Below are positions 5,605 to 37,474 of a stretch of DNA of 37,561 bases, in pieces. The DNA comes from Dysgonamonadaceae bacterium. Lineage in GTDB: Bacteria; Bacteroidota; Bacteroidia; Bacteroidales; Dysgonomonadaceae. The stretch lies in contig JAQVGF010000004.1 of NCBI GenBank assembly GCA_028696875.1, forward strand, positions 1-37,561. Reading direction: 5' to 3'. The notes below the pieces were generated by a model. The model made no database searches. It was not told where the DNA came from and saw nothing but the letters and a program-made list of their open reading frames with translations. Made by a program: the position numbers and the translations under genes. Position 1 is the stretch's first letter, and each line of letters starts with the position of its first letter.

Positions 5605-5896
5605 ATGAAAACATTACAGGAAATAAAATCAACTCTGAGTAATCATAAACAACGCCTTTTTTCGTGATTATCCTCTAAAATCTATGGCAATTTTTGGTTC
5701 GTATTCTCGTAGAGAACAGAATGATAATAGCGATTTAGATATTATCGTTGAGTTTAAGGATAAAATTGGTATTCGATTTATAGATTTGGCTGACGAGATT
5801 GAGGACTTGGTTGGATTTAAGGTTGATTTAGTATCTAAAAATGGAATTAAAGAAAAATATTTGAAAGCAATTGATTCAGATTTAATTTATGTTTAA
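5605..5896 (+). pseudogene. Minimal nucleotidyltransferase (MNT-type, COG1669-like), frameshifted
   Basis: MKTLQEIKSTLSNHKQRLF | +1 frameshift at the CCTTTTTTCG homopolymer | RDYPLKSMAIFGSYSRREQNDNSDLDIIVEFKDKIG...LIYV; GSYSRxExxxxSDLDI catalytic motif. Confidence 0.85.
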
Positions 5897-6400: not shown

Positions 6401-6709
6401 ATGGCTAAAAAGGAGATTGTAGAGATGTTGAAAAAATATATTTTTGTTTTACGTTCAGAGGGGATAATCATAGATAAAGCATATTTGTATGGTAGCTATT
6501 TGTCAAATACAGCTACCGATGAAAGCGATATTGATGTTATGATTGTGGTTGAAAAAGAGGATGACTATTTGACTGGAAAAATCTGGAGTTTAACTAAAAA
6601 AGTTAATTCAAAAATTGAACCTTATCTTGTGGGAAAATTGAGGTTCAATAATAATGAGGATTCTCCTTTGATTGATTTAGTAAAAAGGACGGGGTTGGAA
6701 ATAGCATAA
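6401..6709 (+). CDS. Nucleotidyltransferase domain protein (MNT-like)
   Basis: 102 aa; LYGSYLSNTATDESDIDVMIVV = GSxxx...SDIDV nucleotidyltransferase motif. Confidence 0.85.
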   Translation: MAKKEIVEMLKKYIFVLRSEGIIIDKAYLYGSYLSNTATDESDIDVMIVVEKEDDYLTGKIWSLTKKVNSKIEPYLVGKLRFNNNEDSPLIDLVKRTGLEIA

Positions 6710-13199: not shown

Positions 13200-13767
13200 C
13201 TAAAGCACATAATCTATTGCTGCGCAATGTGTCTTGACTTTTGAAATAAAAGAAACCACTTTTTGATGCTCCGGATGGTTTATGTATAAATTCAAATGGT
13301 TAATACTCTCAAATTCTGTCATTAAGATTAAATCATAATTCTCCGTTGATATCTCAGGATCGTTAATGTGTACTTCAATTTTCAGAAGAACAGGAATTAA
13401 CCCGTATTATTCACGTTTTTAGCTTTGCGTAGATGCAAGGCGTCGAACTCCGCTGATATGTACGCTGCCGCACGATTGTATCGTGTGGTATTGCAACCCT
13501 ATCTTAAACCACGCGAAAGATTCGCGCGGTAGCGACGTAAAGATAAAAGCGAACAATACCCAAAAATGGATATAAATATCAAAGCGTAATGAGGATACAA
13601 GTCATTGATTACTAAATGTATAGTGTTTACGTTCTTTAATTGTGATGAATAATGCGGGTTAAATGTTGCAAGTTCTCTAACTTTTCTTTCAGATAGAGTG
13701 CATTTTCTTGCTTAGAATTTCCTTTAGCAAAAGGAGCCAATTTAAATAGAACAATATGCTTAATCAT
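13200..13767 (-). pseudogene. Dabb (stress-responsive A/B barrel) domain protein gene disrupted by a MITE-like insertion
   Basis: N-terminus MIKHIVLFKLAPFAKGNSKQENALYLKEKLENLQH (13767 down to 13663) and C-terminus LIPVLLKIEVHIND...THCAAIDYVL* are split by 13397..13662; excising 262 bp gives an uninterrupted 101-aa ORF. Confidence 0.9.
13397..13662. mobile_element. MITE-like non-autonomous element, 258 bp plus TTAA on both sides
   Basis: Termini TTAA-CCCGTATTATTCA ... TGAATAATGCGGG-TTAA (16/17 match as inverted repeats including TTAA); no internal transposase ORF; inserted in a reading frame restored by precise excision. Confidence 0.85.
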
Positions 13768-13865
13768 GTTTCAAATTTATTTTTAATTCCTACAAAAATA
13801 GTGCTTTTTAGTTTTATAAATAAATAAAATACTACATTGCGATTGTATCGTGTGCAGACAATCGA

Positions 13866-13944
13866 ACATTGCGCCTCCAACCCGCATTGTCCATATTAGC
13901 AGTTTTTGTTCTTATGCACAATGCGGACTGAAGTCGCAATGTGC
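13866..13944. repeat. Two-hairpin intergenic repeat, copy 1
   Basis: ACATTGCGCCTCCAACCCGCATTGTCCAT ... GCACAATGCGGACTGAAGTCGCAATGTGC; cognate copies at 32416..32505 and 33988..34071. Confidence 0.7.
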
Positions 13945-14090
13945 TTTTGATAAACTACCCTATACTGCTACACTTTCGTGCGATTGCATTGCGTGGTTTT
14001 AATTGCATTTCTTAAAAGTTCAATCCCGAGTTAAAACATATAAATTTAACAAGATCAACGGGGCAGAATCAAAAACCATCGACACAAAAA

Positions 14091-19391: not shown

Positions 19392-19997
19392 ATGGGGAGG
19401 AAAAACATACTGTTATATTCATTTATTTTTCTGTTGCTTTTTTTTGGTTGTGATAAAGAGTCTACTCGTATTGATGATTTTTTAGTGGAATTTGCAATTG
19501 TAAAAAAGGTGGGCGATGATGTCACTTTTCGCTTGGATAACGGAACAATCTTAACTCCCGAGGGAACAACAAATTTAGAGATCGAGGATGGAAATCGAGT
19601 AATACTAAATTACACACCTTTGGAAAAAGGTGTTATAAAAGTAAATAGTGTTCGCCGAATTTTTATGGGCTCTATCAAGAAAGAAGGTTATCCGAATGAT
19701 GTAAAAACAGATCCGGTAAGAATTATTAGCGTTTGGGTTAGCGGCATCTTTTTAAACATCTCTTTTGAGGTAGATTATCACTCAAAATCGCATCGAGCCG
19801 GCTTATATAGAGATATGAGTGCTGACGAACAAACGCTTTATTTTAGCTATTCCCGCGAAGATGATCCTCTGGGAGCTCCTACCCTCTCTTATATGTCATT
19901 TAATCTGGAGAGTTTGCAAAAGAAAAACTTCACGGTTTTTATAAACACGTATGAGGGGCAAAGGAAGTTTGAGTTTGAAAAGGAGGGTGAAGAGTGA
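19392..19997 (+). CDS. NigD-like lipoprotein
   Basis: 201 aa with lipobox (LLFFGC) and an N-terminal barrel followed by a beta-rich C-terminal domain typical of Bacteroidota NigD-like proteins. Confidence 0.75.
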   Translation: MGRKNILLYSFIFLLLFFGCDKESTRIDDFLVEFAIVKKVGDDVTFRLDNGTILTPEGTTNLEIEDGNRVILNYTPLEKGVIKVNSVRRIFMGSIKKEGYPNDVKTDPVRIISVWVSGIFLNISFEVDYHSKSHRAGLYRDMSADEQTLYFSYSREDDPLGAPTLSYMSFNLESLQKKNFTVFINTYEGQRKFEFEKEGEE

Positions 19998-20935
19998 AGA
20001 GTGGTATGGGGTGTGGGGTGTGGGGTAGCCGATATGATATTGAGATTGGTAGTGAACTTTGAACTTATTGAATTACAAATGACTAATTACGAATTACGAA
20101 TGAATGATCTCGATACTCGTTACAAGAATTAAATATTGCATTATGTTCCCAAATTCCGATTTTCGATTCTTGCATTTTAAAAACCTTATTTGGATTTGGA
20201 TTTGTATTTGAGCTTAGTAACCGTGAGAATCACCTCTAAACCTAACCTTATTACCTTATTAAATGGGGAGTGAGGAGTTAAGAGTGAAGAGTGGAAAGGG
20301 GTGTGGGGTATGAGTTTTGGGGTATGGGGTAGCCGATATGATATTGAGATTGGTAGTGAACTTTGAACTTATTGAATTACAAATGACTAATTACGAATTA
20401 CGAATGAATGATCTCGATACTCGTTACAAGAATTAAATATTGCATTATGTTCCCAAATTCCGATTTTCGATTCTTGCATTTTAAAAACCTTATTTGGATT
20501 TGGATTTGTATTTGAGCTTAGTAACCGTGAGAATCACCTCTAAACCTAACCTTATTACCTTATTAAATGGGGAGTGAGGAGTTAAGAGTGAAGAGTGGAA
20601 AGGGGTGTGGGGTATGAGTTTTGGGGTATGGGGTAGCCGATATGATATTGAGATTGGTAGTGGACTTACTCCTTATTGAATTACAAATGACTAATTACCA
20701 ATTACGAATGGTAAAATGCCGCGCGTTATGTATTATGAGTCTTAAATCCCCACTATTAACCTAATTCCGATTTTCGATTTTCGATTCCCGATTCCCGATT
20801 TTCGATTCTTGCATTAAAAAAACCTTATTTGGATTTGTATTTAGAGCTTAGTAACCGTGGGAATCACCTCTAAACCTAACCTTATTACCTTATTAAATGG
20901 GGAGTGAGAAGTGAGAAGTGAGGAGTGAAAAGTTG
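19990..20935. repeat. 304-bp tandem repeat (about 3 copies, two identical) built partly from degenerate heptanucleotides
   Basis: AGCCGATATGATATTGAG recurs at 20027, 20331 and 20635 (period exactly 304); 20027..20330 and 20331..20634 read identical; third copy diverged. Confidence 0.95.
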
Positions 20936-20963
20936 ATACGTGAAATTACCGTTGATAAAAAGG

Positions 20964-20992
20964 TCATTCGTAATTCGTAATTCGTAATTAAC
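20964..20992. repeat. Heptamer array (TAATTCG)n
   Basis: TCATTCG-TAATTCG-TAATTCG-TAATTAA; inverted relative to AATTACG-AATTACG-AATG inside the 304-bp unit. Confidence 0.9.
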
Positions 20993-37012: not shown

Positions 37013-37026
37013 CAGGGATTTTTTAT

Positions 37027-37474
37027 CTCGCTAAGATGATAAGAACGCAAAGTGTTTATTTAATTGATAAAAAGAAGTTCAATAAATTCTCTTTTGCGTT
37101 CTCCGCAACTTTGCGTGATACATTCTTTTGTTTTCTCTCTCGCTAAGATGATAAGAACGCAAAGTGTTTATTTAATTGATAAAAAGAAGTTCAATAAATT
37201 CTCTTTTGCGTTCTCCGCAACTTTGCGTGATACATTCTTTTGTTTTCTCTCTCGCTAAGACGCTAAGAACGCCAAGTCTTTCTTTAAATTGATAAAAAGA
37301 AGTTCAATAAATTCTCTTTTGCGTTCTCCGCAACTTTGCGTGATACATTCTTTTGTTTCTCTCTCGCTAAGACGCTAAGAACGCAAAGTGTTTATTTAAT
37401 TGGAAAAAAGAAGTTCAATAAATTCTCTTTTGCGTTCTCCGCGATTTTGTGTGAGATAAGATATCTTTTTTGCT
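37027..37474. repeat. 112-bp tandem repeat array, about 4 copies
   Basis: CTCGCTAAGA starts at 37027, 37139, 37251 and 37363 (period 112); copies 1 and 2 read identical; copies 3 and 4 diverge. Confidence 0.95.

Follow-up and report, generated by a model that had tools for sequence, protein, structure and literature searches.

A TTAA-flanked miniature element with IS1380-type ends interrupts a Dabb gene in a Dysgonamonadaceae bacterium

Overview

The window, that is, the whole 37,561-bp stretch of DNA that was analysed, contains a 258-bp element that belongs to the MITEs: it is short and non-coding, has inverted ends, is present in several copies and has generated independent target duplications. 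Comparison with related genomes makes it very probable that the ends of this element are bound, cut and pasted by a DDE transposase of the IS1380 family supplied in trans. Because there is no transposase ORF, the element is filed here as a MITE with IS1380-type ends and not as an IS1380 element proper. It is a new and well resolved member of a known element type.

The element and the interrupted Dabb gene

Read on the window strand, the element starts with CCCGTATTATTCA and finishes with TGAATAATGCGGG (Table 1). The 13-bp ends, written CCCGYATTATTCA, agree with each other at 12 of 13 positions; read further inward, the left end is CCCGTATTATTCACGTTTTTAGC and the right end CCCGCATTATTCATCACAATTA, the first 19 bases of the right end being CCCGCATTATTCATCACAA. 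The left terminal inverted repeat is followed by a conserved subterminal stretch, CGTTTTTAGCTTTGCGTAGATGCAAGGCGTCGAACTCCGC. The ORF list contains no frame of 60 aa or more overlapping the element, and an Rfam search started with it gave zero matches. The predicted fold is much stronger than that of shuffled sequences (z -4.95); strong folding is common among MITEs.

Table 1. Positions in the window of the element, its duplicated target and the two parts of the interrupted gene
Feature	Positions	Strand	Evidence
Dabb gene, 3' part up to the stop codon	13200..13396	-	rejoined frame, homologues, Pfam
Duplicated TTAA target, left copy	13397..13400	.	single TTAA at the same point in the G001 orthologue
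Non-coding MITE, 258 bp	13401..13658	.	boundaries from five other copies and the empty site
Left terminal inverted repeat, CCCGTATTATTCA	13401..13413	+	alignment of copies; same end type brackets IS1380 transposase genes
Internal module with two small hairpins	13455..13534	.	alignment, dispersed pieces, predicted fold
Right terminal inverted repeat, CCCGCATTATTCA	13646..13658	-	alignment; 19 bases identical to an IS1380 element end from the same genus
Duplicated TTAA target, right copy	13659..13662	.	read from the sequence
Dabb gene, 5' part	13663..13767	-	rejoined frame, homologues, Pfam

The insertion point lies about one third into a gene for a Dabb (stress-responsive A/B barrel) protein. 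When the flanks are joined with one TTAA, a 101-aa ORF is obtained on the minus strand, from 13767 to 13200 (MIKHIVLF...KLENLQHLIPVLLKIEV...IDYVL), and its product matches the Pfam family PF07876, Dabb, over residues 2-100 with an E-value of 3.5e-21. With the element present, the N-terminal Dabb frame enters it for 8 residues and then meets a stop codon (...LENLQH-LTRIIHHN-stop), and the function of the gene was probably lost through the insertion. Uninterrupted, full-length Dabb homologues are found in most of the searched genomes of the family. The orthologue in G001, which belongs to the same genus, is 68% identical and is adjoined by rpsT on the same side as in the window; at the insertion point it reads GGGAATTAAATCTC, with a single TTAA and no insert. 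The empty allele of the Dabb site would read CAACATTTAATTCCTG. The sequence-only reading of this locus had described a 258-bp non-coding element with inverted ends, TTAA on either side and a Dabb gene split by it, and had claimed both the exact boundaries and the ancestral allele. The boundaries proved exact to the base, the frame recovered by excision is indeed a Dabb gene, and the occupied and empty states that it proposed to compare are seen in the host and in the G001 orthologue, which has one TTAA at that very point.

Copies in the host genome and target duplications

A search of the host assembly (2.35 Mb, 258 contigs, 86% complete) reveals six copies of the element with E-values down to 2e-136, which rules out a chance resemblance; one is that in the window, and the five others are 218-259 bp long. 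The window copy (C76) and a 259-bp copy (C20) are 94% identical and occupy different sites, and the four remaining copies (218-220 bp) show 73-76% identity over the full query. Placed in a common orientation, the copies agree in both terminal parts, and their differences lie in the middle. The element is internal to several contigs, each with different flanks. A search of a plasmid collection gave zero matches.

The flanking 4-mers are TTAA/TTAA in three copies, TTAT/TTAT and CTAA/CTAA in one copy each, and CGAA/CTAA in copy C95, so that an exact 4-bp repeat is present at five of the six insertion sites and C95 alone has unequal flanks. A second empty site comes from copy C20, which is inserted in a dispersed repeat and reads ACC-TTAT-element-TTAT-TACC; unoccupied copies of the same host repeat in the window (20207-20298, 20511-20602 and 20841-20932) read ACCTTATTACC, with a single TTAT. 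The two empty sites, TTAA in the Dabb gene and TTAT in the dispersed repeat, thus indicate that insertion duplicates 4 bp. The five further copies bear out the earlier description of the element as a mobile MITE; the TTAA-type target proposed with it holds for the window copy and has to be relaxed for the set of six, where TTAT and CTAA also occur. The window copy is the only one that interrupts a recognisable ORF: rejoining of the flanks at the other five sites yields no frame longer than 70 aa.

In the window, the repeat just mentioned forms about three copies of a non-coding unit of ~304 bp after a 201-aa ORF (19971-20989), and it is the copy of this repeat on contig C20 that served as a landing site of the MITE, with a TTAT duplication. 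The window also contains, at its end (37019-37466), four head-to-tail copies of a different repeat of ~112 nt, 74-98% identical to the reference copy, and two short ORFs (5684-5896 and 6401-6709) that by eye resemble minimal nucleotidyltransferases (GSYSRREQNDNSDLD, GSYLSNTATDESDID).

The longer form of the element, represented by two of the six copies, contains an internal module with the hairpins CCGCACGATtgtATCGTGTGG and CCACGCGAaagaTTCGCGCGG. Since pieces of this module devoid of MITE ends are found elsewhere in the host genome and in its relatives, the module looks like a REP-like repeat that the MITE has either captured or exchanged. REP-like hairpins of the CACGATTGTATCGTG type, which lie within the module, appear by eye to have similar counterparts in the adjacent intergenic region, at about 13840-13990.

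IS1380 transposases between ends of the same type

Related genomes were searched independently with the end pattern and with the IS1380 transposase family PF13701, and both searches converge on the same places in three genomes, where the bracketed genes match NF033539 and/or PF13701. One of these elements (L171, genome G081) measures 1623 bp, has the same 16 bp, CCCGGATTATTCATAA, at either end and TTAA on both sides, and encodes a 435-aa protein matching the NCBIfam model NF033539, “IS1380 family transposase”, with an E-value of 1.7e-94. Another (L172, G093) spans 1570 bp between CCCGAAAAATTCA and CCCGCATTATTCA, also with TTAA on both sides, and carries a decayed transposase gene. Genome G002, of the same genus as the host, has at L170 an intact IS1380 transposase of 432 aa (8.6e-96) between CCCGCATTATTCA and CCCGAAAAATTCA; the flanks are unequal, with CTAA in front of the former and TTAA after the latter. 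In addition, a contig of G001 (L281) breaks off within an IS1380 transposase gene; its last 35 codons (89% identity to the G002 transposase) lie 0.2 kb from TTAT-CCCGCATTATTCATCACAA, which equals the right end of the MITE over 19 bases. Other IS1380 transposases of the same order (L296, L297 and L298) have related ends of the CCTG type, e.g., CCTGAATTATTCA, with TTAA duplications.

The MITE thus has ends of the IS1380 kind (CC(C/T)G...), together with a ~4-bp duplication. An IS1380-like mover had been guessed in the sequence-only reading from the ends alone; this guess gains support from the direct association of like ends with IS1380 transposases at L171, L172 and L170, and insertion sequences with matching ends, for which it proposed a search, do exist in the relatives. 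Neither the lack of other copies nor the lack of such insertion sequences, which it had named as refuting, is observed. Among the elements found, no full-length insertion sequence has a counterpart of the MITE left end, CCCGTATTATTCACGTTTTTAGC. Derivation of the MITE by simple internal deletion from any of the sampled insertion sequences was rejected because the resemblance to their ends does not extend past the first ~19 bases.

Proposed mechanism and alternative explanations

The copies, the ends, the duplications and the association with IS1380 transposases, together with the known behaviour of DDE insertion sequences, point to the following scheme. An IS1380 transposase acting in trans would bind the two CCCG...TTCA ends of the MITE, move the element and join it to a YTAA-like site cut with a 4-bp stagger, and insertion at a YTAA or TTAT site would produce the 4-bp duplication. 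The window copy would have entered the TTAA in the Dabb gene, with the reading frame ending 8 residues later; we infer that this copy, too, was mobilised in trans by that transposase. The host assembly, 86% complete, yielded no IS1380 transposase in a profile search or in a query with the same-genus protein. For this reason, the MITE seems to be either stranded or mobilised in trans, its mover being either absent from the host or missing from the assembly with its 258 contigs. Repeats are often lost from assemblies, and the autonomous partner with the same ends that is usual for MITEs need not persist in the same genome.

The lack of a detectable IS1380 transposase in the host assembly would also suit a mover from a different DDE family that makes A+T-rich duplications of ~4-5 bp, e.g., of the IS701, IS1634 or ISH3 type; in such families, the direct repeat measures about five bp (PMC2266710). 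However, it is IS1380 transposases, one of them from the same genus, that are found between ends of the CCCG..ATTATTCA type, accompanied at L171 and L172 by TTAA duplications, and the loci examined showed no recognisable transposase of another family within such ends, which makes a mover of this kind improbable. A dead remnant of a longer insertion sequence that decayed in place, as opposed to a mobilised miniature, appears more improbable still. The genome without a transposase would fit such a remnant, as would the divergence of the copies to 73-76% identity over the full query, which suggests that several insertions may be old; but independent target duplications contradict decay in place, and C76 and C20, though inserted at separate sites, share 94% identity. 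Moreover, the six short copies fall into two near-constant lengths and have intact ends and separate target duplications, and therefore the short form itself must have transposed.

The REP-like hairpins and the strong fold could, in principle, belong to a non-mobile intergenic repeat or a structured RNA with inverted ends that arose by chance, and the configuration in the window might be an assembly join. We consider this the least probable explanation, to the point of being hardly credible: the occupied and empty sites, the 4-bp duplications and the matching ends of insertion sequences all argue against a non-mobile repeat, as does the Rfam result, and the same element is found inside several contigs with different flanks. 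Mobilisation in trans by an IS1380-family transposase accordingly remains the preferred reading.

Wider spread of the ends

When genome contigs are scanned for one end only, TAACCCGYATTATTCA, at least 119 loci are obtained, from Bacteroidota, Nitrospirota, Mariprofundaceae, Planctomycetota, Acidobacteriota and other groups. Among the matches listed, a second inverted end is located 60-400 bp away in 51 cases, and in 32 of these 51 pairs the right 4-mer equals the left one, compared to a mean of 13.8 and a maximum of 24 in 1000 shuffles; the right-hand 4-mer played no part in the search. The short elements delimited in this way are too small for a transposase, the longest open frame listed in one of them being 128 aa. 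Across the order, an IS1380-type protein above the Pfam cut-off is present in 7 of the 19 genomes with the exact end vs 49 of the 374 others (hand count), a modest association. No direct IS1380 partner was found for the short elements in distant phyla; a Ghiorsea genome with these MITEs encodes many IS1380-like transposases, none of which has these ends in the five loci examined.

In Bacteroidales STF2_160, the two ends of a compact 142-bp family (L113, L036, L129 and L141) are unequal, CCCGCATTATTCATCAAATTTG versus CCCCAATTATTCATTCGAATAA, and several of its sites show TTAA or CTAA; no PF13701-type transposase was found in this genome. Transposase-free elements of 170-190 bp with CCCGCATTATTCATGA-type ends and TTAA or CTAA duplications at several sites are present in Nitrospira and relatives (L079, L118, L098, L099 and L119). 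Genome G053, an 80% complete assembly, has 36 matches to the end pattern with one mismatch allowed and no IS1380 transposase and is, like the host genome, a MITE-rich genome without a visible partner.

It is conceivable, at somewhat less than even chances, that CCCGCATTATTCA ends with a YTAR duplication represent one shared IS1380 signal, and that transposase-free elements of ~75-390 bp carrying it occur across all the groups listed above, outnumber or outlive their autonomous partners and form a bacterial counterpart of TTAA-flanked piggyBac MITEs. Their recurrence in distant phyla makes the ends useful for annotating many unlabelled repeats and for testing how the IS1380 family recognises its ends and chooses its targets.

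Comparison with known systems

With the IS1380 family (NF033539; PF13701, DDE_Tnp_1_4), the MITE shares ends that start with CCCG or CCTG and read CCCG.ATTATTCA, and a 4-bp duplication of the YTAA type. It differs in its length, 258 bp instead of about 1.6 kb, in having no transposase and in that only the terminal ~13-19 bases are shared. The described IS1380 member IS1247 makes a 5-bp duplication (PMC3281130), so that a preference for 4-bp YTAA sites may be a trait of the present subgroup. Bacterial MITEs resemble the element in being short, non-coding and multi-copy, with inverted ends, target duplication and a strong fold; the distinctive feature here is the existence of two internal forms, of ~220 bp and ~258 bp, the longer one with the hairpin module. 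A search of open-access texts for these end sequences or for TTAA MITEs of Bacteroidetes retrieved nothing relevant, which is weak evidence of novelty. The locus provides a clean MITE case in little-studied bacteria: both the occupied and the empty allele are available, the ends are exact and the transposase family is identified.

The element partly resembles the eukaryotic piggyBac transposons and their TTAA-flanked MITEs, which have a 4-bp TTAA target and CC..GG termini; piggyBac has been paired with IS1380 in publications that also note 4-bp duplications and CC..GG termini common to both (PMC10045372, PMC5718144). The element described here has CCCG..CGGG termini and no transposase; in contrast to piggyBac, it resides in a bacterium and its duplication is looser, with TTAA at three of the six copies and CTAA or TTAT at others. 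As a TTAA-targeting, CCC-ended, IS1380-linked bacterial MITE, it offers a simple parallel to the piggyBac MITEs of eukaryotes.
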